This document shows, piece after piece, positions 3,444-37,527 of a stretch of DNA of 42,683 bases. How positions within the stretch are numbered: position 1 is the first letter of the stretch; every line of letters starts with the position of its first letter. This stretch comes from Henriciella sp. Lineage in GTDB: Bacteria; Pseudomonadota; Alphaproteobacteria; Caulobacterales; Hyphomonadaceae. Where the stretch lies: the NCBI GenBank assembly GCA_029238175.1, contig JAQWGO010000035.1:1-42683 (forward strand). The letters run 5' to 3'. The position numbers and the translations under genes are program-made. The notes below the pieces were generated by a model. It did no database searches, was not told where the DNA came from, and saw only the letters and a list, made by a program, of their open reading frames with translations.

Positions 3444-4070
3444 TCAGTCTAAATCGACGCCCGCGATAAGACCTTCCAGCATCAGTCTTATCGATGTCTT
3501 GGCGCTTTCAACCGACCGTTTCTGATCCTGTCGCAAGTGCCGCCAGGTGGAGAAATCCAAAGCGACCTCAATCGCACCAAACAAATCCCGATTAGATGTA
3601 ATCTCTTCGGGTAGGATATTCTTCAAAGCAGAACGTAAGTACAAAATGTCACGTTCATGCTGCTCACCGAGGAAGTCTGACTGGAACCGCCGAAGGGTCA
3701 TGCACATTTTCATTGGAAAGACAGTTTCATACAATTCTGCGCGCTTTTCCAAACATTCAAACAAGCGGTCCTGCCACTTCGTGGACTCATAAGGCGCTAC
3801 GATCATAGGCATAACCGCTTCGCTAATTTCTTGAGCCATTTCATCATAGATACTGTCCATATCTTCGAAATGACGAAAAACAGTGCGCATGCCGACCTTG
3901 GCACGGTCTGCGACGCTGACGGCGCTGGGTGCCATATCTCCCTCGGCGAGAAGCTCAAACAGTGCCTCAATGATGCGCCTGCGGCTTCGATTGCTGCGCA
4001 AACGGCGTCCGTCATTCGTCTCTGCGTCAATTGCCGGAAAAGGATTTTTAGATAGCGATGAGGTCTTCAA
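3444..4070 (-). CDS. TetR-family transcriptional regulator
   Basis: The N-terminal helix-turn-helix spans about residues 20-65 (RRRIIEALFELLAEGD, then APSAVSVADRAKVGMRTVFRHFEDMDSIYDEM), with the usual TetR ending VGMRTVFRHF. The remaining 140 residues form a helical ligand domain with no recognisable ligand signature. A longer frame reaches a GTG at 4148, but the added residues are hydrophobic and unlike a TetR start. TTG at 4070 has GGGAG seven bases upstream and gives a normal 208 residues, so I prefer it. The gene is divergent from the sulfatase, and the shared 200-bp interval carries a perfect operator-like repeat. It probably represses itself, the sulfatase, the receptor and the GST operon until a substrate-derived inducer binds. 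Confidence 0.85.
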   Translation of the reverse strand: MKTSSLSKNPFPAIDAETNDGRRLRSNRSRRRIIEALFELLAEGDMAPSAVSVADRAKVGMRTVFRHFEDMDSIYDEMAQEISEAVMPMIVAPYESTKWQDRLFECLEKRAELYETVFPMKMCMTLRRFQSDFLGEQHERDILYLRSALKNILPEEITSNRDLFGAIEVALDFSTWRHLRQDQKRSVESAKTSIRLMLEGLIAGVDLD

Positions 4071-4200
4071 GATCGCGCTCCCAATAATGGCGTTCAGCGT
4101 GACGATATAGGGGGAAGTTGCAAAAAAAGAAATAACAGCAGCGAACACAACGTTCTCAACCGAAACAATCTATTTTCGAACTTGCGCCACACATGAATAA

Positions 4201-4219
4201 ATGGCAAGTCGTATGCCAT
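4201..4219. promoter_or_regulatory. Inverted repeat ATGGCA-N7-TGCCAT, candidate TetR operator (site 3)
   Basis: ATGGCAAGTCGTATGCCAT has perfect 6-bp arms and the 7-bp spacer shared by sites 1 and 2. It lies in the divergent interval between tetR and the sulfatase, 52 bp before the sulfatase start, where one bound dimer could control both directions. This is the best single argument that the neighbouring TetR protein reads this motif. Confidence 0.7.
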
Positions 4220-4270
4220 AAGGTGAATGTGCGGGGATTTGTATCCGGTTCATGATTTTTGGGAGAGGCG

Positions 4271-5947
4271 ATGATGTGGAAGAAATTTGTAATCGGCTTG
4301 CTCATCGCCATTTTGGGTGCGGGTATTCTGGCCTGGTTTAACCGCTCAACGATCTTAACGCACATTGTTCTAGACCGTGTAAAATCTTCGCATTATCCCG
4401 TGGCAGACAATAAAGCTGTCACTTGGCAGCAAGGTCCTTCTGAGGCTGTGCTTCCAATTGGAGAGCGACCACCGAACGTCGTGTTCATTCTGCTGGATGA
4501 TTTAGGCATCAATGACTTGTCCACCTTTGGCGGGGGCGTTGCAGGAGGGCGCGTACCAACACCAAATATTGACCTCCTCGCGTTTGACGGCGCACTTTTC
4601 ACGCAGGCCTATTCCGGAACCGGTACATGCGCGCCATCGCGGGCTATGCTAATGACAGGGAGATATCCGATAAGGCACGGGTTTGAATTCACGCCGACGC
4701 CGGAAGGCATGGGGCGTGTAATTTCAACCATCGCAAATGGAAGTGATCGTGGGGCGCTGCCTGATGTCGAATATGCGACAGAAAACTCAGACACGCGTGT
4801 CGCTTATGATGATATGGGGCTTCCGGGATCTGAGGTGACAATCGCCGAAATACTGCAGGACCAAGACTATCACACGGTTCATATTGGCAAGTGGCACCTT
4901 GGCCGTAATCAGGAAAGCCGGCCAACTTCGCAAGGCTTCGACGAAAGCCTGCTCATGCATAGTATGCTATATCTGCCCGAGGACGACCCGTCCGTTGTCA
5001 ACGCGCGGCTGGATTTTGATCCGATAGATCAATTCTTATGGGCACGCGGGCAGTATGCCGCCTCCTATAATATGGGTGAGCCTTTTGAGCCGGGCGGCTA
5101 TCTCACCGACTGGTGGACGGATGAAACGCTGAACGTGATTGAGGCGAACAAAAACCGCCCTTTCTTTTTATATTTGGCGCATTGGGCGCCTCACACACCG
5201 CTGCAGGCGACGAAGGAAGATTATGAAGCTGTCGGTGATATCGAGCCGCATCGTTTGCGCGTCTATGCCGCGATGCTCCATGCGCTTGATCGCAGTGTCG
5301 GCCGCGTGATGGATAAACTTGAAGAAGAGGGTTTGGCGGAGAATACGATTATTGTTCTCAGCAGTGATAATGGCGGGGCGGGCTATGTTGGCTTGCCAGA
5401 GCTTAATGCCCCTTATCGCGGTTGGAAGATCAGCCTGTTTGAAGGCGGTATCCGCGTGCCTCTATTTGTGAAATGGCCGGGCAAAATTGCACCCGGCACA
5501 GTGGTCGAAACGCCTGTTGCGCATATAGATGTCATGCCGACGCTTGCCGCTGCGACGGGCGCGGTGCTGCCTGATGATGTGGTGATTGATGGCCAGAACC
5601 TGTTGCCCGTTATGACAGGCACAGGCGATGTGGTTCGGGAGAATGACGCGATTTACTGGCAGTCCGGCTATTATCAGGTTGTTCGCGCTGGAGACTGGAA
5701 GCTGCAGGTTGATGGTAAGCAGAATAAAGTCTGGCTATTCGATCTCGCAAATGACCCGACCGAGCAGAATAATCTGGCCGATGCCCACCCTGAAAAAGTC
5801 GCTGAACTGCAAGGGCTGCTGGAGGCGCATCAGGCAAACTACGATGGGCCACTTTACAGTTACGAAATGGAGTCGCCTCAGCCAATTGACACCACTGGCG
5901 CTCAAACGGCGACGGAAGACGATGAGTATGTCTGGGTCCCGAATTAA
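4271..5947 (+). CDS. Membrane-anchored Cys-type sulfatase (sulfatase family S1)
   Basis: Residues 5-22 form one hydrophobic segment (signal anchor), placing the enzyme in the periplasm. The alkaline-phosphatase-like fold shows the metal-binding ILLDDLG (Asp76-Asp77) and the sulfatase signature CAPSR at Cys120 followed by MLMTGRYP, the Cys that is oxidised to formylglycine. HIGKWHLG and SSDNGG are further metal and active-site motifs. It should hydrolyse a sulfate ester; the substrate is not predictable, though overall layout resembles arylsulfatases. ATG 4271 (or 4274) follows GGGAGAGG; the longer TTG start at 4259 would lie inside that site. A formylglycine-generating-enzyme-like gene for its maturation sits at 9003-9944. 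The next gene starts 27 bp downstream on the same strand. Confidence 0.93.
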   Translation: MMWKKFVIGLLIAILGAGILAWFNRSTILTHIVLDRVKSSHYPVADNKAVTWQQGPSEAVLPIGERPPNVVFILLDDLGINDLSTFGGGVAGGRVPTPNIDLLAFDGALFTQAYSGTGTCAPSRAMLMTGRYPIRHGFEFTPTPEGMGRVISTIANGSDRGALPDVEYATENSDTRVAYDDMGLPGSEVTIAEILQDQDYHTVHIGKWHLGRNQESRPTSQGFDESLLMHSMLYLPEDDPSVVNARLDFDPIDQFLWARGQYAASYNMGEPFEPGGYLTDWWTDETLNVIEANKNRPFFLYLAHWAPHTPLQATKEDYEAVGDIEPHRLRVYAAMLHALDRSVGRVMDKLEEEGLAENTIIVLSSDNGGAGYVGLPELNAPYRGWKISLFEGGIRVPLFVKWPGKIAPGTVVETPVAHIDVMPTLAAATGAVLPDDVVIDGQNLLPVMTGTGDVVRENDAIYWQSGYYQVVRAGDWKLQVDGKQNKVWLFDLANDPTEQNNLADAHPEKVAELQGLLEAHQANYDGPLYSYEMESPQPIDTTGAQTATEDDEYVWVPN

Positions 5948-10404: not shown

Positions 10405-11436
10405 CTATGTGAATAATGCTTCGCAGCCTGAGCCGCTAAGGGCGGCGTCGACTGCGCCGCGCTCATTGTCGGACAGGCGCTCATGGTCTTCGCGTAGCCA
10501 GTCTAGGCATTTTGCCTGGTATTTGAACGTCGGCTGCGTCCAATGCCGCCCGTCAATTTCTGTCTCGAATGTCGCATCGCCATTCATAACAGCCTTTGCG
10601 TTGGCGATCATTGCAGGTGCATAGGTGCGGCCGATTTCTGAAAGTAGCGGCCCAAGCGCTTCGCTCGCTTCTTCGGCGCTGAACCAATCGTCATCTGATG
10701 GTTTGAGGCCCGATAAATCTTCCATAATATCGACCCAAGCGCGCACGCGCTGGGATGTGTCGGACGTCAGTTTAGCTGACGTCGGCTCAATCACGGCGAG
10801 TTGTGTCAGCTGCCCAAAAAGCGCGAAATCGGCAGATGCGGGCCGTCCGCCGAGCACAAAGCCTTTGCGGGCAATCAGTCGGTCGAGAATTTCAATAAGC
10901 CTGACATAAGATGATTCAATCGTCTCCGCGGTCACCTCGTTCGAACCGACGACGTACAGTCGGTCGATCTGACGTTTGGCAAAGTCGGCTACGAACTTGT
11001 CCGCCATACCTTCGGGCGCTGTGTTAATGCCCCAATAGACCAAGAGCGGCGCCGCATTCTTCCAGTCAGCCTCGTGCGCCCAGCGAAAATGAAACATGGC
11101 TTTCGTGAGCCATTCGTCCGCATAATCCTCGATCAACGAGTTCATGAATTTTAACGTTGGATCTTGGGGGATGACTGACCGCCCGGAATAGTCATCCTCA
11201 AGGCGGCGTATAATAGGCGTCGAGTCCGTAACCGGCACCAGCACGCCATCTTCACCATCAGGAAAAAAGAAAGTCGGCAGCAATCGAACCTTGGGTTCCG
11301 GATAGCCTTCCGGGATATTCCCGTTTCCCCAGAACACAGAATAGGGTAGATGCCGGTAGCGCAACACGCCCAACATTTTCCGGGTATAGGGAGAGCCAGC
11401 CGCCCCCGTCAGTTCGATCCGCTTCGTTTTTGCCAT
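10405..11436 (-). CDS. Glutathione S-transferase family protein
   Basis: The N-terminal thioredoxin-like domain (about residues 5-85) starts IELTGAAGSPYTRKMLGVL and includes LLPTFFFPDG and TDSTPIIRRLE, the latter matching the glutathione gamma-glutamyl binding E/D-S motif. A helical C-terminal domain with GGRPASADFALFGQL carries the usual GST N-capping motif. At 343 residues it is longer than typical GSTs (200-230), the extra length lying at the C-terminal end. ATG 11436 has GGAG eight bases upstream; the frame extends to 11484 but that would run through the operator-like repeat. It is first in the leftward operon. Conjugation or dehalogenation of an electrophile is plausible; the substrate is unknown. 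Confidence 0.82.
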   Translation of the reverse strand: MAKTKRIELTGAAGSPYTRKMLGVLRYRHLPYSVFWGNGNIPEGYPEPKVRLLPTFFFPDGEDGVLVPVTDSTPIIRRLEDDYSGRSVIPQDPTLKFMNSLIEDYADEWLTKAMFHFRWAHEADWKNAAPLLVYWGINTAPEGMADKFVADFAKRQIDRLYVVGSNEVTAETIESSYVRLIEILDRLIARKGFVLGGRPASADFALFGQLTQLAVIEPTSAKLTSDTSQRVRAWVDIMEDLSGLKPSDDDWFSAEEASEALGPLLSEIGRTYAPAMIANAKAVMNGDATFETEIDGRHWTQPTFKYQAKCLDWLREDHERLSDNERGAVDAALSGSGCEALFT

Positions 11437-11466
11437 ATCATTTTCTCCACAGCGAGACGTAAGTAA

Positions 11467-11483
11467 TGGCAGATAGGGTGTCA
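11467..11483. promoter_or_regulatory. Imperfect inverted repeat TGGCA-N7-TGTCA, candidate TetR operator (site 4)
   Basis: TGGCAGATAGGGTGTCA has the arm TGGCA, a 7-bp spacer and one mismatch in the right arm. With its left flank it shares the 13-mer GTAATGGCAGATA with site 2 in front of the receptor. It lies 31 bp upstream of the GST start codon, where a repressor would block the promoter of the four-gene operon. Confidence 0.5.
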
Positions 11484-11604
11484 ATAAAATTCTGTGCTTG
11501 CCAGACCTAATCGAACAGAAAAGTGATCCGCGTTTAATCAGGCCTCATGGTGGCGCTCTAGCGGGCTCTCACTTGTCGGCTTCATACTCTAACAACAGTG
11601 CTCC

Positions 11605-11777
11605 ATGAGCGTACGCGATGTGGTTATTCTTGAGGATGATGAAGCACAAGCCGGTTTAAGTGCAAGCACTCTAACCCACTGTATTAAAAGGAATTACCAG
11701 TCTACTGTTATGGGAGGTGCGCCCTCCCGCACCCATATTAAGCCCCTGAAATCTTTACGGATTTCAGGGGCTTTTTT
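11605..11777 (+). ncRNA. Possible small RNA ending in a terminator
   Basis: A strong plus-strand terminator occurs without a protein gene to terminate: both flanking genes run leftwards. Just before it, GGTGC (11716-11720) pairs with GCACC (11729-11733), or alternatively GGGAGG with CCTCCC, giving a second hairpin. The 5' end is a guess, as no convincing promoter can be read. A 67-codon frame starting at 11605 crosses the terminator and is not believable as a protein. This matches no RNA family I recognise. Confidence 0.25.
11740..11777 (+). terminator. Strong Rho-independent terminator
   Basis: AAGCCCCTGAAATC (11740-11753) and GATTTCAGGGGCTT (11760-11773) form a perfect 14-bp stem with a TTTACG loop, followed by further T residues. 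On the opposite strand the stem is followed by A, so it works for plus-strand transcripts. No plus-strand gene precedes it closely. Confidence 0.85.
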
Positions 11778-12013
11778 GTGTTTATATTTTGAGCATCGTG
11801 CGGCGTAGGAGCCGTGTCAAACTTAATGCCCGTAGATCATCGCCCGCGCGCGGTGCCAGTGTCCCGTCATGCCAGTCGAAAGCGAGTAGTGGAGAAGGGG
11901 AAGAGACAGAGGAGTTGCTCGCCGTGTCTGGTTCCTTCCCTTGTCTGCCTATTTGCTACGAGACAGCCCATTGCATACGGAGGTTCGTGTTATGTCGTCT
12001 CGTTCTTCTGGTG

Positions 12014-12442
12014 CTAGATTTTCTCGGCTTCGCGACGCACGTGCTCTAGGAATTCAGCAATAACTTTGCGTTCTGTTGGATTAAACGGAGCTAGAATATG
12101 CTCATTCATTTCTTGAATACGCTTGGTGTGACGTCGAATGAGGTCACGTCCGGAACTCGTGATGTGCAAAGTGTGGACACGGCGATCGATATCAGACGTC
12201 TGCCGCTTCAGCATGCCTCTAGTTTCAAGCGTATCGACCAGATTGGTTAGCCTCGATTTGCTGTGCCCTGCGCGCTGGGCGACTTCTGACGCGCGCAGAC
12301 CATCTTCAGCGTTCAGGGTGAATAGGATGACCTGATGCGCCGTCGTGATCCCTTCCTGTAATCGCATAATACGGTCTGCGGCGCGAAACAACGCAGCGTG
12401 CGCGATGTGCAGAAGGTGGAAAACTCGAATCTGCGTTGACAT
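12014..12442 (-). CDS. MarR-family transcriptional regulator
   Basis: The 142-residue protein has the MarR winged helix-turn-helix (about residues 30-110): LFTLNAEDGLRASEVAQRAGHSKSRLTNLVDTLE is the recognition region, followed by the wing RGMLKRQTSDIDRRVHTLHIT with its conserved D-R-R. Terminal helices form the dimer interface. It is divergent from the alcohol dehydrogenase/GST/thioesterase operon, with 103 bp between start codons. Two TTCAA-N2-TTGAA-like repeats in that gap are candidate operators, one of them only a few bases from its own start. Autoregulation and control of the operon by a phenolic or electrophilic ligand are typical of the family but are not shown here. Confidence 0.9.
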   Translation of the reverse strand: MSTQIRVFHLLHIAHAALFRAADRIMRLQEGITTAHQVILFTLNAEDGLRASEVAQRAGHSKSRLTNLVDTLETRGMLKRQTSDIDRRVHTLHITSSGRDLIRRHTKRIQEMNEHILAPFNPTERKVIAEFLEHVRREAEKI

Positions 12443-12445
12443 TAG

Positions 12446-12477
12446 TTCAACCTTGAATTAAATGCTTCGAACTTGAA
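12446..12477. promoter_or_regulatory. Paired inverted repeats TTCAA-N2-TTGAA, candidate MarR operators
   Basis: TTCAACCTTGAA (12446-12457) is a perfect 5+2+5 repeat and TTCGAACTTGAA (12466-12477) is the same with one mismatch. Their centres are 20 bp apart, about two helical turns, so two dimers could bind the same face of the DNA. A further palindrome, ATATCGTTTGATAT, lies at 12481-12494. All are in the divergent marR/dehydrogenase interval. Confidence 0.5.
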
Positions 12478-12545
12478 CCAATATCGTTTGATATGGATTA
12501 AGGCAAGCCCTGGATCCATGAGACTTCAACCATAGGAAATACTCC

Positions 12546-13592
12546 ATGAGCAGTTTATTTTTTGAAGGCGCTAATTCGCTCGGTTGGCGAGATGTTGCCA
12601 TGCCACGCGTGCAAGCGGACCATGAAGCTATTGTACAAACGATCGCTGCAACGGCTTGCTACGTAGATACGATGGTCATTGCAGGCATTACCCCAATGCA
12701 GCCGCCATTCGCGCTGGGTCACGAAGCGGTCGGGCGGGTTGTCGATATGGGCGACGCCGTCAAAGGACTTGAGATCGGCGATATTGTATCGATTCCAAAC
12801 CACCGCACCTGCGGAAGCTGCAAGTCATGCGCAGCGCATAACCCATTGCACTGCGAGCAGGAGAATGCGCCTTTCCCACTTCTGCCAGCGTATGGCACCC
12901 CGGACGCATACGGGTTTGGCGGTATGTTCAGTGAGGCATTTCGGGTTCCATTCGCCGGGCACGCGCTGGTTAAAATTCCAAAATCTGTAGATCCGATTGC
13001 GGCTGTCGCAGCTGGCGACACGCTGACGGACGCTTGGCACACGACTGTGCCGCACATTCGCAAAAAACCTGATGCGAGGGTCCTAATCACCAGTAATGCG
13101 GGATACGGGCTATATGCAGCGCAATGGGCGCTCTCTGCTGGAGCGCAAGAGGTCGTGTATGTCGATGACGACCCCGTCAGAATGGCAGCCGCTAAAAAGA
13201 TTGGCGCCACGATATTGCAATGGTCAGACGATCTTGAGGTCCCGCCTATCTACGATGTGATTGTCAATGAGCGGCAGGGCGGGGCGGCTTTACGGTTTTG
13301 CCTCCTCGCTGCCGCACGTGACGGGGTTGTGGAGAATGTTGTCATCTATTTGGAAGACGTTCCTATCCCTCTGTTCCGGATGCATTTCTCCGGTGTCACT
13401 TTGCGTTCATCTTTCTGCGCCGCGCGGCTGTATATGCCTGAGGTGATCGCTGAGCTTGAAAAGGGCACAATTAATCCGCGAGAGGTTGAGTCAGAGATAT
13501 TTACTCTGGACGAAGCAGCAGAGCGCTTGCTTCAGCCGAGCCACAAGCCAATCGTCATGTTTGACAAAGACTTTGGCGGAAGCGCGTCCTGA
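12546..13592 (+). CDS. Zinc-dependent alcohol dehydrogenase (MDR superfamily)
   Basis: The 348-residue protein has a catalytic-zinc Cys (TACYVDTM), GHEAVGRV with the second ligand, and the structural-zinc cluster CGSCKSC followed by a fourth Cys seven residues later (PLHCEQ). The Rossmann domain reads SNAGYGLYAAQWALSAGA and ends beta-2 with YVDDDP, where the Asp favours NAD over NADP. It should oxidise an alcohol or reduce an aldehyde in the cytoplasm. Its stop overlaps the start of the GST-like gene (TGATG), so it is the first of three coupled genes. Regulation by the divergent MarR protein is likely. The substrate is unknown. Confidence 0.88.
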   Translation: MSSLFFEGANSLGWRDVAMPRVQADHEAIVQTIAATACYVDTMVIAGITPMQPPFALGHEAVGRVVDMGDAVKGLEIGDIVSIPNHRTCGSCKSCAAHNPLHCEQENAPFPLLPAYGTPDAYGFGGMFSEAFRVPFAGHALVKIPKSVDPIAAVAAGDTLTDAWHTTVPHIRKKPDARVLITSNAGYGLYAAQWALSAGAQEVVYVDDDPVRMAAAKKIGATILQWSDDLEVPPIYDVIVNERQGGAALRFCLLAAARDGVVENVVIYLEDVPIPLFRMHFSGVTLRSSFCAARLYMPEVIAELEKGTINPREVESEIFTLDEAAERLLQPSHKPIVMFDKDFGGSAS

Positions 13593-14245
13593 TGATTTTA
13601 CTATTCACTGATGCGTCGCCGTTCGCGCGAAAGTGTAGGGTCTTGATCGAAGAGCTTGGCGTTGCTGATTCCATTGAATTGCGCGACGTTGGAGCACTCA
13701 GTCCATTGGACGCGAATGATATGGCATGCGCCCAAGGGCCGCTCGGAAAGGTCCCAATTTTGATACGGCCCCTCGCGGCTTCTCTCTACGACTCCAGCGT
13801 GATTTGTGAATATATCAATTATGCCAATCAAGCTGCCGCCTTCCCGGTTGAGGGAGAAGCAAGATGGCGCGCTTTGCGATTGCAGGCGCTCGCCGATGGG
13901 ATGATGGAGGCCGCTGTGGCTATGCGGTATGACACTTCATTTCGTAAGAACACGCCGCACGCAGACCAATGGCATGAACGTCAGACCGCCCGACTATTAG
14001 CCTCAGTTAAAACACTAGATGAGCGGGTCGGAAGCTTCCGTGCGATACCAACGATTGGCGAGATCAGCGTCGCGTGCGCCCTCGGCTATCTTGATCTTAG
14101 GTTCGGAAACCTAAGTTGGCGGCGCGGCAGACAATCATTGGAAAAGTGGTTCAGTTCATTCTCAGAACGGCCTTCGATGGTTGTGACCGCACCGAAAACC
14201 CCAAACATAAACTCTACTCAGGAGTTAACCCTTGAAACCATCTGA
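13592..14245 (+). CDS. Glutathione S-transferase-like protein
   Basis: The N-terminal thioredoxin-like domain begins LLFTDASPFARKCRVLIEELG and contains GKVPILIRPLAASLYDSSVICEYI, with the cis-Pro (VPIL) and the D-S glutathione-binding motif. The C-terminal half (about 90-200) is helical. The length of 217 residues is normal for the family. It is translationally coupled to the dehydrogenase in front (one-base overlap) and overlaps the thioesterase after it by 14 bp. It is only distantly similar to the 343-residue GST at 10405-11436. The activity may be conjugation, isomerisation or dehalogenation of an intermediate in the same pathway. Confidence 0.8.
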   Translation: MILLFTDASPFARKCRVLIEELGVADSIELRDVGALSPLDANDMACAQGPLGKVPILIRPLAASLYDSSVICEYINYANQAAAFPVEGEARWRALRLQALADGMMEAAVAMRYDTSFRKNTPHADQWHERQTARLLASVKTLDERVGSFRAIPTIGEISVACALGYLDLRFGNLSWRRGRQSLEKWFSSFSERPSMVVTAPKTPNINSTQELTLETI

Positions 14246-14675
14246 AATGACAGGCCTTGACCTCATGCGTCTAGCGACGAAGCTTCCCGGAAATATGGGT
14301 GATCGAGGCATCTCTAGCGTGATCCCAATGAAAATTATCGAAGCAGAGGAAGGGCGCATCGTTTTTCTAGCGACCGCAGACGGACGCCACACGAACCCCC
14401 TTGGCGCCGTCCATGGCGGGTTCGCAGCAACTGTTCTGGATTCTGCGACAGGCTGCGCGATCCACACATTGCTGCCTGCCGGCGTTGGGTACGGTACGGT
14501 TGACCTTAACGTGAAAATGGTTCGCCCAGTTCCTCTGGAACAAGAGATGACGGCAATTGGCAAAGTCATTGATCGAACCCGAACCATGGCGATCTCTGAA
14601 GCAACGCTGACAAATAAGGATGGCAAAATCTACGCCACCGCGACTGCGACATGCCGCATTTTGGCGCCGTCTTAG
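14232..14675 (+). CDS. PaaI-family acyl-CoA thioesterase (hotdog fold)
   Basis: The 147-residue protein has the hotdog-fold motif HTNPLGAVHGGFAATVLDSATG, in which HGG and the Asp two turns later are the PaaI-type active site, followed by YGTVDLNVKMVRPV. These enzymes hydrolyse acyl- or aryl-CoA thioesters. The start is a TTG with GGAG about eight bases upstream; ATG 14247 is the alternative but lacks such a site. It closes the dehydrogenase/GST/thioesterase operon, which as a set could convert an alcohol to an acid by way of a CoA ester. Confidence 0.87.
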   Translation: MKPSEMTGLDLMRLATKLPGNMGDRGISSVIPMKIIEAEEGRIVFLATADGRHTNPLGAVHGGFAATVLDSATGCAIHTLLPAGVGYGTVDLNVKMVRPVPLEQEMTAIGKVIDRTRTMAISEATLTNKDGKIYATATATCRILAPS

Positions 14676-32129: not shown

Positions 32130-32831
32130 TTAAGCGGCGACCGCTTCTTTCTTTGGTTTTGGATCGCGTAGCACGTAGCCACGGCCCCAAACCGTTTCGA
32201 TATGGTGCTCACCGCCAGTTGCTTGCTGCAGCTTCTTGCGGAGCTTACAGATGAACACGTCGATGATTTTCAATTCTGGCTCGTCCATGCCGCCGTAAAG
32301 GTGGTTGAGGAACATTTCTTTCGTCAGGGTTGTACCCTTGCGAAGCGAAAGAAGCTCGAACATTTGGTATTCTTTGCCGGTCAGGTGGACGCGATCATCG
32401 TCGACTTCGACGGTCTTCGCATCAAGATTGACCAAGATGTCGCCTGTGCGGATAACGCTTTCAGCGTGACCTTTAGAGCGGCGAACGATCGCCGTAATAC
32501 GGGCAATAAGTTCATCTTTGTTGAATGGCTTGGTGAGGTAATCATCAGCGCCGTAACCGAGTGTTTTCACTTTGGCTTCGATGTCTGGGTTACCTGATAG
32601 GATCAGAACCGGCGTGTTGACCCGCGCCATGCGAAGCTGTTTCAACACGTCATAGCCAGAGATGTCTGGAAGAGAGAGGTCGAGGATGATGATATCATAC
32701 TCGTAGACTTTGCCGAGATCGACACCTTCTTCGCCTAGATCAGTTGTATAGATATTGAAGCCAGCGGCTTTCAACATCAATTCGATACTACGGGCGACGG
32801 CATTGTCGTCCTCAATTAGCAAGACTCTCAT
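32130..32831 (-). CDS. ctrA: CtrA cell-cycle master response regulator
   Basis: This 233-residue OmpR-type regulator matches CtrA nearly end to end. The receiver (1-115) has the acidic pocket IEDD (Glu7-Asp9), phospho-acceptor Asp51 in IILDLSLPD and the invariant Lys in YLTKPF. The DNA-binding domain (125-225) includes [20 protein letters not shown] and GRGYVLRDP. The C-terminus ends in two alanines after EAVA, resembling the AA degradation tail recognised by ClpXP in Caulobacter. CtrA controls flagellar, division and chemotaxis genes and blocks replication initiation. Here it stands directly downstream of a flagellar block whose far end encodes its antagonist SciP. Its own 124-bp upstream gap has several GANTC sites. 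Confidence 0.98.
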
Positions 32832-32955: not shown

Positions 32956-33792
32956 TTAATAATGCATCTCTTGTCCGGTACGCCCTAAAAGCGTGTGGGC
33001 AATGGCGATTGCATCCTGAATTGGTTGTGAGGATGGATCAGTTGAGATTAACGTTCGCTGGCTGCGAATAGCTTCACGAACCGCTTCATCGCGCATAATC
33101 GTTCCGGCCAGATGTGGACGGAAGCCTAGGAATGTCTGGCAGGCGCGCGATACCGCTTCATATGTACGTTGACCCGCAGCGCGTGTTTCGCACTGGTTAA
33201 TGGCAATCACTTGCTCAACGTTTGGCGCGTAGCCCTTGAGGACTTTAATAAAGGCATAAGCGTCCGTCATCGACGTTGGCTCGTCAGTGATGATCATCAC
33301 CACTTTATCAGCGGCGCGTGCGAGGCGCATGCAATTGGATTCAATCCCGGCGCCCAAATCAAGGATGACTTGATCATATTGCAGGGCGAGGGCAGAGAGA
33401 CCAGCGGCAAGGCGGGCAACTTCTTCTGATGACATTTCAGCCAGTGCGCCAGACCCTGAACGACCTGGAAGGACATCAAAGCCGCCGCTGCCTGAGCCGC
33501 CATCAACTGGCGTGACAGCATCTTCAAGTTCGACCCAACCGGCAATTACGGCTGCGAGGTCTGTTTCTGGGGCGATGCCGAGTTGGACATCGACGTTTGC
33601 GAGGCCAAGGTCACCGTCAACAAGAAGTGTTCGCTTACCGGCTTGTGCAAAGGCACTGGCGAGGGTGATCGACATGAAAGTCTTGCCAACACCGCCTTTG
33701 CCGGAGCCAACAGCTAGGATCGAGGCTGGCTCGACGCGGCGCTGTGGCCGCTGGGCCGGGCGTTCTTGTGATTTCGGGAGTAGGAAGCTCAT
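32956..33792 (-). CDS. flhG: FlhG (FleN/MinD-like) ATPase of flagellar placement
   Basis: The 278-residue protein has the deviant Walker A motif GSGKGGVGKT (around residue 35), LLVDGDLGLANVDVQLG (switch I) and ILDLGAGIESN in place of the usual D-T-G/A-A-G (switch II), then MIITDEPTSMTDAYA. FlhG limits flagellar number by controlling FlhF and binds C-ring proteins. ATP-binding residues are intact, unlike the neighbouring FlhF. The start overlaps the flhF stop by one base. A C-terminal amphipathic helix region (QDAIAIAHTLLGR) could be the membrane-targeting sequence. Confidence 0.9.
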   Translation of the reverse strand: MSFLLPKSQERPAQRPQRRVEPASILAVGSGKGGVGKTFMSITLASAFAQAGKRTLLVDGDLGLANVDVQLGIAPETDLAAVIAGWVELEDAVTPVDGGSGSGGFDVLPGRSGSGALAEMSSEEVARLAAGLSALALQYDQVILDLGAGIESNCMRLARAADKVVMIITDEPTSMTDAYAFIKVLKGYAPNVEQVIAINQCETRAAGQRTYEAVSRACQTFLGFRPHLAGTIMRDEAVREAIRSQRTLISTDPSSQPIQDAIAIAHTLLGRTGQEMHY

Positions 33793-34796
33793 TACGCAGC
33801 TCCTTTCAAGGCGACATGGGCGGGTGCATCTTCCGTGAGGAGCTGCGCCAACCTGGAAGGTGTAGCTGGGACAAGGCCGCCACCAATGAATGGTGTGACA
33901 GCAAGATGAGATATAGAGATTTTCGCGGCTGATAGCGCTGAGAATATCCCGCCGCGTCTGCGTGTGACGTCTAGTTTTGTAACAATTGCGCGTCTGATGC
34001 CGCAGCGGGCGAACGCGCGGGCGGCTTCGGCTTGATCTTCTGGATGACCTTCAGCGCTGATGACGAGGACAGGCTCTGCGTCGATGACCGCGATAAGGTC
34101 TTGTAGGCTGGCCATATCATCATGATCAAACGGGACGATGGCGGGCAGATCGATAACACAACGTTTGCCGTCTTTGCGGATCGTCTTCAAAATTTTGAAC
34201 AGATCGTCCGGGTTCATTGCTGAACGAACTTGTTTTTGCTCACGCTCAAGATAGGCCGCGAGCTGTGCGCCGCCAGCGGTGTGATCTAGGTCAGCCGCGA
34301 CAGGTAGGATTTCTGCTTTCGCAACAGCGGCGCGGCGTGTGAGCTTTGCTGCAGTGGCGGTGCGGCCATGTCCGGGCGCGCCGACGAGTAATATATCGCG
34401 GTTAGGAACTGGCGGAATGGGGTCGCACGTAATTAACGCTTCAAGCGCGGCCGCAATCGCGGATGTCGGTTCCTGATTGTTAAAGACACCTGTGATGCCT
34501 GCATCTGCAGCGCGTTCTGCGAAGCGTTCCGGGGCACCATGCCATAGAAGGGCATCGCGGACACGGTTGCGCATTGGATTTTCAACAAGGCGTGGTGGAG
34601 GCGCAGCGCCTAAACGGGTCAGGATGCGTGATTCACTCGGAACCATGCCGCCGCCCAATTTATCAGTTGCAGCGCGGACTTCCACACCGCCAGGGACTTC
34701 TCGCTCAGACAAGATGATGGCATCATCACCCATCTCAGCAAAGATCATTGCCTTAGCAGCGTCCATAGACTCAGCGGCAAACATCTTCATACGCAT
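33792..34796 (-). CDS. flhF: FlhF-like SRP GTPase with degenerate GTP-binding motifs
   Basis: The N-terminus MRMKMFAAESMDAAKAMIFA, then GDDAIILSEREVPGGVEV, is a typical FlhF start. The NG domain follows, but its motifs are altered: the P-loop reads GAPGHGRTATAAKL, with Arg for the invariant Lys; the G2 DTYRIGA box is ADLDHTAGGAQ; the G3 DTAGR box is IDLPAIVPF. Only G4 (VTKLD) is well kept. At 334 residues it is also shorter than most FlhF proteins (often above 380). It may bind GTP poorly or not hydrolyse it, acting as a placement scaffold. ATG 34796 has GGAG eight bases upstream; GTG 34805 lies inside that spacing. Confidence 0.85.
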   Translation of the reverse strand: MRMKMFAAESMDAAKAMIFAEMGDDAIILSEREVPGGVEVRAATDKLGGGMVPSESRILTRLGAAPPPRLVENPMRNRVRDALLWHGAPERFAERAADAGITGVFNNQEPTSAIAAALEALITCDPIPPVPNRDILLVGAPGHGRTATAAKLTRRAAVAKAEILPVAADLDHTAGGAQLAAYLEREQKQVRSAMNPDDLFKILKTIRKDGKRCVIDLPAIVPFDHDDMASLQDLIAVIDAEPVLVISAEGHPEDQAEAARAFARCGIRRAIVTKLDVTRRRGGIFSALSAAKISISHLAVTPFIGGGLVPATPSRLAQLLTEDAPAHVALKGAA

Positions 34797-34902
34797 ACGA
34801 CACACTCCACTCTAGTTCGTAGAGTGTTGAGGCGAAATGGTTAACAGAATCTGTTGATTTGTTAGTTTTTCACAGTTTCTCGGTAACTGTGGATAGGTTT
34901 TG

Positions 34903-35163
34903 TTAAGCGGCGCGGCGCTCGTCGACGATTTCGCTGAGGGTTACGCCTAGCTCACCATCGGCAATAACCAAGCGTCCACGCGCCATCAGACGGTCTGAGA
35001 CGTAAATGTCTACAAGGTCGGTTGTTTCGCGGTCTAGCGCGAGAATTTCGCCTTCAGACATCGCCATAAGCTGCTCCACAGGCATGCGAGCTTCGCCTAA
35101 GACAACATCAACTTGAACAGGGACGTCCATTAAGGAAGTTTCGAGGGCGCGGTTTACGGTCAT
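34903..35163 (-). CDS. fliN: FliN flagellar switch protein
   Basis: The 86-residue protein is a single SpoA domain: SLMDVPVQVDVVLGEARMPVEQL, then SEGEILALDRETTDLVDIYV and GRLVIADGELGVTLSEIV. This is the C-ring FliN/YscQ fold with only a short N-terminal extension; Caulobacter FliN is slightly longer. FliN forms the lower C-ring with FliM and binds CheY-type inputs. No FliM gene is in the window. It lies 71 bp after the flbE-like gene and about 100 bp before flhF. Confidence 0.92.
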   Translation of the reverse strand: MTVNRALETSLMDVPVQVDVVLGEARMPVEQLMAMSEGEILALDRETTDLVDIYVSDRLMARGRLVIADGELGVTLSEIVDERRAA

Positions 35164-35234: not shown

Positions 35235-35591
35235 TCAACTTTCGCTGAATAATTCGCCTTGGCCTTCAAGAACAGTGCTGGCGATGCGGCGCACGTTTTC
35301 CATCGCCTGTTGGCGGTCATGCTCATCAATGGCGGCCGTTTCGAGATAGGCCGCAAGATCGACGATGCGTGTCATAACTGATTTCAGATCACCGGAGACG
35401 TTTGACAGCGTATCTGCTTGTTCAGCCAGCGCGTCATTTCGGACAAGCTCTGCAGTACTTATGCGGGTCTCTGAAAGGAGGGCGGCAAGGTCAGAAGCGC
35501 TCAGCGTGATCTGTTCGGGATCGTCCTTGCGCGGGGCCGAGAAGTCACTCTCAAACGGGAATGGTTTTAGGTTTTCGATGCGGCGCCTCAT
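35235..35591 (-). CDS. FlbE/FliH-like small flagellar protein
   Basis: The 118-residue protein is charged and largely helical, with no signal peptide and no membrane segment. Its place between fliG and fliN is where flbE (the Caulobacter FliH-like gene) sits in the fliF-fliG-flbE-fliN order. It overlaps fliG by four bases (ATGA). Sequence similarity to FliH is not obvious to me, so the assignment rests on position, and the protein is shorter than usual FliH/FlbE. FliH normally regulates the export ATPase FliI and docks to FliN. Confidence 0.55.
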   Translation of the reverse strand: MRRRIENLKPFPFESDFSAPRKDDPEQITLSASDLAALLSETRISTAELVRNDALAEQADTLSNVSGDLKSVMTRIVDLAAYLETAAIDEHDRQQAMENVRRIASTVLEGQGELFSES

Positions 35592-36514
35592 TCGACAAGC
35601 TCATCATCTTCGTCAGCGCTCATGATGTCACCGCGCTTGACCATCGTGCGAGCCAGCGCGACGATTTCAGCGCGTGCAATTTGAATTTCGCTGCGCCGGA
35701 CAGGGCCGCTGCCTTGGATTTCACTGCGCAGAAGCTCACCCGCACGCTGGGTCATGTTGTTCATGAACGCTGCAGCGGTTTCTGGCTTGGCATCCTTCAA
35801 CGCGATTATCAGAACGGCGCGGTCAATGCTGGCGAGAACTGTTTGCATGCTGGCTGGATCAAGCGCTGATAGATCATCGAACGTGAACATGAGCGCTCTG
35901 ATTTTCTCGCTTGCGCCAGGTTCAGTCTTATCGAGGGCTGTCAGCAGGTCTTGCTCGACCCGTCCGTCGAGGCCGTCAAAGATTCGTGCGAGATGCTCGT
36001 GTCCTGATTTCCTCGACTGTATGCCCGACCTCGCGATCTGATCAGAAAGACTGTTCTCGATTGCATGCAGCGCCATGGGGCGAATGTCACCTAGGTTCAG
36101 CAAACGATGTAGGGCTTCTGTCGCTGTGGCACGGGGCAAGGCGCGCACCGTGTTCGCCGCCGCTTGCGGATCGAGCTTTGATAGAATGACGGCGATGACT
36201 TGCGGGCTTTCATTCTGGATCAGGGCAGCATTCGCGTTGCCATCGCGAGATGAAAGCTGATCCCAGAGGGCAGTGGCCGTGCGTGTGCTTGCTCGCGTGC
36301 TTTGCGACTGTTTGCCCATGGCGCGCGTGTAGGCGCTGGCGGCTTGAGCTTCAGCGACCGGGTTATCGGGTAGCTGTTGCATCGCTGAAGATAGGCGTGA
36401 CGCCTCATCGGGGCTGAGGCTAGCCCATACTGCGTTAGCTTTTGCCCCAAGTGCGCGCATCAGAGCAGCGCTGCGCATTAGGCCGTTTTGTGGGATCGCG
36501 GCGGGTAGGTTCAT
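35588..36514 (-). CDS. fliG: FliG flagellar motor switch protein
   Basis: The 308 residues contain a shortened FliF-binding N-terminus (to about 65), a middle armadillo domain beginning IQNESPQVIAVILSKLDPQAA (the EHPQ motif is ESPQ), and a C-terminal motor domain with LMFTFDDLSALD. In the torque helix the residues that E. coli needs are mostly kept: Lys in IIALKDA, Arg in MTQRAGELLR, and Arg in GPVRRSE, while the two Asp are Ser-Glu. So the rotor face appears functional. It overlaps the FliF-like gene by four bases upstream and the flbE-like gene by four downstream. Confidence 0.93.
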   Translation of the reverse strand: MNLPAAIPQNGLMRSAALMRALGAKANAVWASLSPDEASRLSSAMQQLPDNPVAEAQAASAYTRAMGKQSQSTRASTRTATALWDQLSSRDGNANAALIQNESPQVIAVILSKLDPQAAANTVRALPRATATEALHRLLNLGDIRPMALHAIENSLSDQIARSGIQSRKSGHEHLARIFDGLDGRVEQDLLTALDKTEPGASEKIRALMFTFDDLSALDPASMQTVLASIDRAVLIIALKDAKPETAAAFMNNMTQRAGELLRSEIQGSGPVRRSEIQIARAEIVALARTMVKRGDIMSADEDDELVE

Positions 36515-37158
36515 GCGGCATCCTCCGACCCGGTCATCCAGTTGCGTAGGATGTGAACCGTATCACTTGGGTTTCGTTCGGCCATGTCTGCGGCTTTCGC
36601 GATGTCTGGCGATGCCAGCGTCGATGCTTGTTCAGGCTGTTGCGGACGGGACGCGCGCTTTGCGGGAAGTTGGCTTGGCTGCATCTCCGCCGGTGTGGCA
36701 GATCTGTTTTGCAGCATGAGAGACGCTAGAAGCGTCATGCAGAGTAGCCCCAGTCCGGTGAATTCCGCCATTTGCAGCGGACTAAGCCGGGTACCAGTGC
36801 CTGCCGCGAATGGGAATTGTTTGATCGTGAGCGTGTCACGCGGGGCGCCGTATCCGACCGAAGCGGTCAGAATGACTTCAATATTTGCTTTAAGGGACGG
36901 ATCTAGATTTTCAGCCGGTCCATCAAGCAGGATGAGGATCGTTCGGCCTTCTGTGCCTGCGATGGAAACTCGCACGGCATTGTTACCGATAAGTGGCTCG
37001 AGCAAATTGGTTGCACGTTGCTCTAAAGCGCTGCCATTAATCGGCGCAGCGGGACTGGCGAAAAGGTCCAGCGCTCTAAACGAAAGGACCCCCGCTGCGA
37101 TAATGATTGCAGCAAGGGTCAGTATACGCGTGGTGGGCGTTCTGTTTGCAGCGGTCAT
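36511..37158 (-). CDS. fliF: Miniature FliF: MS-ring protein lacking the N-terminal ring domains
   Basis: The 215-residue product has a membrane segment at about 10-29, a periplasmic domain (about 40-120) with LEQRATNLLEPLIGNNAVRV and LTASVGYGAPRDTLTIKQFPF, a second segment at about 128-150, and a cytoplasmic tail ending AADMAERNPSDTVHILRNWM. Those features match the third ring-building region, the second transmembrane helix and the FliG-binding C-terminus of FliF. The YscJ-like first two ring domains, some 200-300 residues, are absent. The gap to the upstream sciP stop is only 90 bp, so they are not simply out of frame. fliG overlaps its end. Normal FliF is 500-570 residues. Confidence 0.8.
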   Translation of the reverse strand: MTAANRTPTTRILTLAAIIIAAGVLSFRALDLFASPAAPINGSALEQRATNLLEPLIGNNAVRVSIAGTEGRTILILLDGPAENLDPSLKANIEVILTASVGYGAPRDTLTIKQFPFAAGTGTRLSPLQMAEFTGLGLLCMTLLASLMLQNRSATPAEMQPSQLPAKRASRPQQPEQASTLASPDIAKAADMAERNPSDTVHILRNWMTGSEDAA

Positions 37159-37248
37159 TTACGTCACCTTATTGCCTGCGGGATGCAGACTTACCCTTAG
37201 TCTAAGGGCGGCAGCGTAAACGGCGCTTTAACGATACCGTAGTGGCGA

Positions 37249-37527
37249 CTAGCGGTACTGTTGAATTCGGGTTGTACGCAGGCCTTTTCGGCCATGCTTA
37301 GAGTAAAGTGCACGCCAGCCTTTGAATTCTTCTTCGCTTAGGCTGTAGCGTTCACACGCTTCGCCTTCGGAAAGAAGGCCACCAGATACGGCGGCGACAA
37401 CTTCGGCTTTGCGGCGTGTGACCCAACGGGTAATGCCGGGTTTAGGGAGGTCTTCGAGTGTGATCGGGCGACCATCAGGGCCTTTGACACTCATTTGATG
37501 TGCATTCTGCGCCATTTTTTCCACCAT
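37249..37527 (-). CDS. sciP: SciP (DUF1153), CtrA-antagonising regulator
   Basis: The 92-residue protein has the DUF1153 signature: GPDGRPITLEDLPKPGITRW, then RRKAEVVAAVSGGLLSEGEA and YSLSEEEFKGWRALYSKHG, a helix-turn-helix related to transposase TrpR-like folds. In Caulobacter SciP binds CtrA-dependent promoters in G1 and represses ctrA and flagellar genes. It stands 90 bp upstream of the FliF-like gene on the same strand, matching the Caulobacter neighbourhood of sciP and fliF. Confidence 0.95.
   Translation of the reverse strand: MVEKMAQNAHQMSVKGPDGRPITLEDLPKPGITRWVTRRKAEVVAAVSGGLLSEGEACERYSLSEEEFKGWRALYSKHGRKGLRTTRIQQYR

Follow-up and report, generated by a model that had tools for sequence, protein, structure and literature searches.

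The closest described counterparts of the protein reported here are the FliF ring proteins of alphaproteobacterial polar flagella, which are about 550-600 residues long. A 42,683-nucleotide stretch of Henriciella sp. DNA (assembly GCA_029238175.1, contig JAQWGO010000035.1, positions 1 to 42,683; this whole stretch is hereafter called the window) encodes on its minus strand, at 36511..37158, a FliF-like protein of 215 residues, here termed mini-FliF. Similar to polar FliF, mini-FliF is encoded after sciP and before fliG at a comparable distance from a CtrA-box-like site, and it combines RBM3 with two membrane helices and a C-terminal tail; however, it lacks RBM1, RBM2 and the collar, and neither FliP nor rod proteins were found in eight of the genomes that carry it. 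The injectisome ring protein SctJ is composed of RBM1 and RBM2 and has no FliG-binding tail. SctJ/YscJ resembles mini-FliF in placing an RBM fold in a membrane ring, and PrgK and EscJ turn up further down among the fold matches of mini-FliF; however, the YscJ_FliF profile matched neither mini-FliF nor any other protein of its genome.

The filament-less basal bodies of Buchnera are a part of the flagellum, FliF and FliG included, that was kept after motility was lost, and they form a mirror image of the present case: Buchnera retained rod, full-length FliF and exporter and lost motA and motB (PMC8109811), whereas the genomes studied here retain rotor and stator, with no exporter or rod found. 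In Caulobacter, an inner rotor with MotAB and without outer parts likewise elicits a cell response (PMC7885107); there it arises by mutation of a normal flagellum, whereas the present system would be a natural machine. The hat-like inner-membrane complexes, including that of Hyphomonas neptunium, are also flagellum-related, through the flagellar exporter, and of unknown function, but they are reported from E. coli, H. pylori and further distantly related species as well and are tied there to FlhA (PMC9380563). Because of this wide distribution, the hat-like complex was set aside and is not expected to be the mini-FliF machine. We propose that the locus in the window may belong to a flagellar-type rotary machine without a flagellum, in which ion-driven MotAB would turn a minimal polar ring for sensing or another non-swimming task and which would have been kept after the flagellum was lost; the probability of this reading is put at roughly 0.45.

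Profile, fold and alignment evidence shows that the 215-residue protein is a reduced FliF, made up of an N-terminal membrane helix, one RBM3-type domain, a second membrane helix and a FliG-binding tail. Both membrane helices are predicted from helices in the AlphaFold model and from their hydrophobic sequence (residues 8-33 at 37060..37137 and residues 127-152 at 36703..36780; minus strand, as are all features below). The model has a mean predicted local distance difference test score (pLDDT) of 79.5 and places an alpha-beta-beta-alpha-beta domain at residues 44-115, between the two long helices, with ten-residue confidence means of 90-96 over residues 41-110; the means over residues 151-180 are 65, 51 and 47, and two short helices follow at 184-208. 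In VIA-align comparisons of the RBM3-type domain (residues 43-118; 36805..37032), the top 14 rows were all FliF RBM3 (Z 8.4-10.1, root-mean-square deviation 2.0-2.6, 72-77 residues), with model residues 43-119 lying on Salmonella FliF 243-439 or Vibrio FliF 271-453; row 15 was also a FliF model, and other folds appeared from Z 7.6 downward. Foldseek by itself gave a weaker signal, its best match being FliF 8t8p (E 1.5e-3), with none below 0.001.

A profile built from 19 relatives of mini-FliF matched Salmonella FliF in the PDB with a whole-sequence E of 7.7e-8. The strong piece of this match joined profile positions 84-219 to Salmonella FliF 398-559 (own E 9e-6), covering the end of RBM3, the second membrane helix and the tail, and the weak piece joined positions 41-74 to Salmonella FliF 238-271, at the start of RBM3 (own E 3.8). 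Profile-profile comparison with eight full FliFs of Hyphomonadaceae gave a probability of 95.0 percent (E 3.5e-8), and comparison with ten FliFs of the second flagellar set of the family gave 94.5 (E 7.4e-8); neither alignment reaches back into the first half of RBM3. That half matches only weakly by sequence, and it is therefore assigned from the fold. The FliG-binding tail (residues 184-208; 36535..36609) aligned to the C-termini of Salmonella and Vibrio FliF, and P197 and W207 within it are invariant in 19/19 aligned relatives. A Pfam search of the protein up to E 10 matched no family, but the profile-profile, VIA-align and PDB profile matches rule out an unrelated domain that merely resembles RBM3, and they uphold the relation to RBM3 that an earlier note on this DNA had drawn.

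That note had also described a FliF without its first two ring domains, and this was borne out, since RBM1-RBM2 (YscJ_FliF, PF01514) had no match in the whole genome. The reading frame, with an ATG start, a 4-base overlap with the start of FliG and real SciP, FliG and FliN neighbors, is present as claimed, and the 90 bases between it and sciP leave no room for a hidden N-terminal region, as the note had argued. The N-terminal membrane helix, RBM3 and tail that it listed are indeed retained; however, it did not mention that the collar insert is also lost. The alignment with Salmonella FliF ends at 243 and 438 and pairs 75 residues, so that about 120 residues of insert are skipped, which indicates that the beta-collar is missing besides RBM1 and RBM2; in the profile match, Salmonella FliF 271-398 faces only about 10 mini-FliF positions, although the adjoining first piece is weak.

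The short FliF genes that the earlier note proposed to look for in relatives are present: mini-FliF is carried by 69 of 101 Hyphomonadaceae genomes, in five genera (a 70th matching genome, G042, was excluded because its match was weak and lay within a 455-residue frame), and full FliF (PF01514) is found in 87. Both forms occur in 61 genomes, the mini form only in 8, the full form only in 26 and neither in 6. The mini-only genomes, which belong to four genera, are that of the window (G000) and G011, G018, G020, G024, G036, G069 and G091; absences were called mostly on draft genomes, G000 being 95 percent complete in 181 contigs and G020, G036 and G069 being 99-100 percent complete. An order-wide survey of 398 genomes returned 66 strong matches (E 1.1e-33 or better, frames of 169-296 residues), all in Hyphomonadaceae, and among the matches listed outside this family the frames were full-length, bar one weak 207-residue frame in G344. 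Among the best 80 loci of a longer list, 13 had a short FliF before FliG, 51 had a full-FliF-type gene (5 of them short frames near a contig end) and 16 had none just upstream; at L132, a FliF-like frame is cut by the contig end and no FliF lies just upstream of FliG. Henriciella mobilis M65 and Hyphomonas oceanitis SCH89 are among the carriers of a short FliF ahead of FliG. The nearest relatives of the window mini-FliF are about 43 percent identical to it. In 29 pairs of more than 60 percent identity, drawn from 28 sequences (L007 and L028 left out) and none including the window's own copy, the ratio of nonsynonymous to synonymous substitution (dN/dS, Nei-Gojobori) was 0.047-0.218; in the five pairs with dS below 0.35 it was 0.065-0.154, and many of the other dS values are near saturation. 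Taken together, the 69 carrier genomes and the low dN/dS in relatives demonstrate that the occurrence of mini-FliF is not due to chance.

Two side observations were made in these surveys. The sphingomonad loci L138 and L130 carry full FliF downstream of FliG (at L130 also downstream of a FliH-like gene), unlike the order in Hyphomonadaceae. Furthermore, L121 (CAMEDD010000011.1), titled Candidatus Sulfopaludibacter, holds a mini-FliF locus of the Hyphomonadaceae type, and its title looks wrong.

Additional families were searched for in 18 genomes chosen to take in all eight mini-only ones. FliP and rod/hook proteins (Flg_bb_rod) were found in 0/8 mini-only genomes, the latter being present in 6 of the 18, and in the genome of the window neither FlhA nor FliF_C gave a match. 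A normal fliF-fliG operon elsewhere, which the earlier note had named as a refutation, was not found in this genome, and in 61 relatives the mini set is kept in addition to full FliF. The stator proteins were matched in nearly all mini-only genomes: MotA_N in 8/8 and MotB_plug in 7/8, with one MotA_N match (contig C151) and one MotB_plug match (contig C113) in the genome of the window. The three genomes with both systems among the 18 (G062, G038 and G015) have two MotA and two MotB each, two with a polar flagellum only (G012 and G042) have one MotA each, with a second, weak MotB_plug match in G042, and in G001 and G085, where no mini form was found, neither MotA nor MotB was found. The MotA of the mini genomes, called class B, forms one clade of 14 rows (support 100/100), which includes G077, G083 and G087; class-B MotB, inspected by eye, has a shorter linker, the motif AYADFLTA, which holds the channel Asp, and a domain of the OmpA-like type, and in PDB searches class-B MotB matched MotB and class-B MotA matched MotA.

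The genes beside class-B MotA and MotB were considered as a clue to function and set aside, because they are conserved but uninformative. Class-B MotB is accompanied by conserved transporter-like genes and a dehydrogenase, judged by eye. At L197, L198, L199, L205 and L207, from both genera, a gene for 174-221 residues and a large transporter-like gene lie beside class-B motA.

FliG was examined at the positions that we take to be K264, R281, D288, D289 and R297 in E. coli numbering. All 19 mini FliGs keep Lys at 264, Arg at 281, an acidic residue at 289 and a basic residue at 297, as do all 20 of the 8 polar and 12 other alphaproteobacterial FliGs compared. R281 and D288-D289 contact MotA, according to PMC12505986. 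The FliG of the window (308 residues; 35588..36514) has N, M and C domains (Pfam FliG_N 4.4e-10, FliG_M 2.5e-17, FliG_C 8.4e-32) and is the single FliG_C match of its genome.

The position of the locus points to its origin. In all eight fetched loci from Hyphomonadaceae genera without the mini form, full FliF takes the place of mini-fliF, and the polar order is sciP, fliF, fliG, fliH (resolved in 7/8), fliN and flhA, followed by flhF and flhG; the L092 stretch ends early, leaving flhA partial and flhF and flhG beyond its end. The 19 mini regions fetched (L055-L073) contained no flhA, and in 12 of them (L055-L066) flhF and flhG follow the mini set; L067, L071 and L072 are truncated where their contigs end. 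Two or more FliG_C matches are present in 60 of the 61 genomes with both forms, the exception, G009, having one and a mini locus cut by a contig end, and full FliF and the second FliG are about 3.5-4 kb apart in the genomes compared. A FliG tree of 49 rows unites the mini FliGs in one clade (100/100) on a long stem among ordinary alphaproteobacterial FliGs and places the second-set FliGs in a separate clade (100/100) on a very long branch. The mini clade is nearest to sphingomonad FliGs (92/83) and not to the polar FliGs of Hyphomonadaceae; however, constraining mini and polar FliGs together was not rejected (approximately unbiased test, p-AU 0.262). Since the tree does not decide on the origin, descent from the polar locus is argued from synteny, by which the mini set is probably the retained motor core of an ancestral polar flagellum.

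One relative carries an even more reduced form. The gap between sciP and fliG in G083 (L210, G083:C60, minus strand, about 4000-4400) holds a 131-codon frame, about 128 residues from its Met, with two hydrophobic stretches and a FliG-binding tail and no RBM3. The FliG of this genome keeps R257 and E265, but K240 is replaced by Met and the Arg pair by Thr-Pro, a loss at two basic torque positions; MotA is present, and no match to MotB was found. Decay of mini-FliF in G083 is plausible; since this is a single genome in 340 contigs, 90 percent complete, it serves as an illustration only.

In the proposed machine, mini-FliF would make a membrane ring via RBM3, its tails would hold FliG, and FliG would carry FliN; FlhF and FlhG, controlled by CtrA, would position this ring at a pole, and peptidoglycan-anchored MotAB units would rotate it by ion flow. 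From the gene content, it is rather probable that a motor core, comprising a mini MS-ring, a FliG-FliN ring and a dedicated MotAB stator, has been kept and that export gate, rod and filament have not. A ring built from RBM3 only is plausible despite the missing collar, because Salmonella RBM3 with its collar forms rings alone (PMC8786727). Neither export gate nor rod was found, and so no outward assembly would take place by a known route. Without rod and filament, the machine might instead, with less support than the preceding steps, sense load or proton-motive force and pass this on to adhesion or the cell cycle; such a sensory or signaling function is preferred, but it is speculative and tentative. 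According to PMC7885107, Caulobacter cells with an intact inner rotor and missing outer parts raise holdfast production via MotAB and DgcB, and the rotor is required. The earlier note had listed a rotor-like device of another kind among its options, and this is the best supported of them, since the eight genomes in which full FliF, FliP and rod were not found keep the mini rotor and a MotA of a distinct clade (class B). The option of a reduced MS-ring subunit is likewise supported, by fold, profile and synteny. The presence of mini-only genomes in four genera suggests that the flagellum was probably lost more than once. No description of the system was found in the open full-text literature, a scope outside which most subscription journals lie, and the main text of a survey of flagellar gene loss in Caulobacterales, as far as it is available, does not name FliF, FliG or MotA (PMC12700997).

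Several observations weigh against a rotary machine. In the genome of the window, MotA and MotB lie on contigs other than that of the window and are unlinked to the rotor genes, and no MotB was matched in G024, which is 80 percent complete. Class-B MotA and MotB occur once each in G077, although FliG and mini-FliF were not found there, and G087 (590 contigs) has two MotA and two MotB, including class B, with no mini set found. The D288 position of FliG is acidic in only 11 of the 19 mini FliGs and is Ser in that of the window, so that the conserved torque residues described in the earlier note stand at four positions and fail at this one. The ten second-set FliGs, which come from full flagellar sets, keep R281 in 10/10 but have no Lys at K264 and nothing basic at R297, in an alignment that is uncertain for these highly diverged rows; conservation at these positions therefore favors stator contact, but their loss would not disprove it. 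The ring-forming Salmonella RBM3 construct includes the collar that mini-FliF lacks. Around L068, L069, L070 and L073, flhF and flhG were not found within the 14-20 kb taken. Lastly, FliM (PF02154) was found in only 2 of the 18 genomes (G012 and G042), a count in which the profile also misses the flagellated G062, G038 and G015. These last three genomes do have FliF, FliP and rod proteins, and their FliM may have diverged strongly or be absent.

The same genes could instead form a static polar scaffold, in which mini-FliF, FliG and FliN mark the pole with FlhF and FlhG and recruit proteins without any rotation. Such a scaffold would fit the adjoining flhF and flhG in the window and in 12 of the 19 fetched mini regions, the retained CtrA-box-like site, and the role of FlhF and FlhG in setting flagellar number and place in many bacteria (PMC12826062). 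It is nevertheless unlikely, because a scaffold would need neither most of the FliG torque positions nor the separate MotA clade and MotB that are kept where FliP and rod were not found, and flhF and flhG were not found near the four loci just named. Somewhat less likely again is a rotor that drives a non-flagellar load, for example a complex of the envelope or the cell surface, by way of some partner of the RBM3 ring. The MotA, MotB and FliG-position evidence speaks for this as much as for the motor core; however, no candidate load is seen among the neighbors of class-B MotB, no constant extra gene was seen in the operon, and a collar-less RBM3 offers little periplasmic surface.

It is very improbable that mini-FliF is a functionless, decaying flagellar remnant or serves the second flagellum as a spare part. 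The set does derive from a flagellar locus, G083 is further reduced, and 61 of the 69 carriers also hold full FliF; but the gene is kept in five genera with the dN/dS of 0.047-0.218 seen in relatives, it persists in the eight genomes where full FliF, FliP and rod were not found, and the mini FliG clade is distinct from the FliG of the second flagellum. For the relatives tested (29 pairs, none with the window copy), dN/dS rules out a pseudogene. The earlier note had also considered a split FliF with RBM1-RBM2 encoded elsewhere, and what is missing does match RBM1-RBM2, together with the collar. The probability of this is close to nil, and the option was rejected: YscJ_FliF was found neither in the genome of the window, which has no FliF_C or FlhA match either, nor in the seven other mini-only genomes, and the FliFs of relatives that were read are separate, full proteins with RBM1-RBM2 and tails of their own, in line with the second FliG in 60 of the 61 genomes with both forms. 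The FliF_C and YscJ_FliF profile searches that the earlier note had suggested thus returned nothing in this genome.

On the minus strand of the window, the order is sciP, mini-fliF, fliG, a fliH-like gene for 118 residues, fliN, flhF-like, flhG-like and ctrA. SciP, the CtrA inhibitor (37249..37527), scored 126.1 bits with NCBIfam CtrAInhibSciP (cut-off 100), and the response regulator CtrA (32130..32831) scored 411.4 bits with NCBIfam CtrA (cut-off 350). The short FliH-like protein (35235..35591) has no Pfam match and is assigned from its position and shared end motifs: it keeps the polar N-terminal motif F.F.(S/A/T)(D/E/V)F and the C-terminal motif Q.(D/E/N)LF or similar, and about 100 residues between both motifs are missing compared with the polar FliH of relatives (202-218 residues at 7 loci; the L087 row of this alignment was in the wrong frame and was disregarded). 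FliN (86 residues; 34903..35163) matched Pfam FliMN_C (3.6e-21) and scored 83.8 bits with TIGR02480 against a cut-off of 84.05. The FlhF-like signal recognition particle (SRP) GTPase (33792..34805) matched SRP54 (1.6e-15) and, under its cut-off, FlhF TIGR03499 (1e-19), and the FlhG/MinD-like ATPase (32956..33792) is assigned from profile matches and alignment.

A CtrA-box-like site, TTAAAGCGCCGTTTA, lies at 37217..37231, 73 bases before mini-fliF. A site that differs at no more than one position from TTAA-N7-TTAA, which we take to be the CtrA consensus, occurs 51-90 bases before the start in 18/18 mini loci and 74-111 bases before it in 8/8 polar loci (starts at L057, L060, L061 and L087 chosen by hand; L067 and L072 excluded). 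Mononucleotide shuffles of the best sites gave p values of 0.000-0.024 for the 18 mini loci and 0.006-0.238 for the 8 polar loci, and a chance origin of the box was set aside on these values.

Some variation was seen among the genes that surround flhF. The P-loop Lys of the FlhF-like protein is replaced by Arg (GHGRT) in 6/6 mini-type rows (the window, L055, L058, L060, L063 and L066), and it is present in 3 of 4 aligned polar FlhFs. In loci of the genus Henriciella, differing genes lie between fliN and flhF (L055 11860-13221, L056 11546-13743 and L057 12329-13480), and the inserted gene for 453 residues in L055 looks caspase-like by eye. At L087, a single 1043-residue frame (11382-14513) spans flhA and flhF, which is either a fusion or a frame error.

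If the proposed reading is true, flagellar motor and flagellum have come apart in the course of evolution. The minimal rotor poses the question of what a stator does without a propeller, and it lets one ask which parts of FliF a ring needs and whether RBM3 sets the size of the ring, for which full FliF, mini-FliF and the shorter form of G083 provide a natural deletion series of the MS-ring. Furthermore, the idea of the motor as a sensor of surface or energy would become testable in cells that have no filament.

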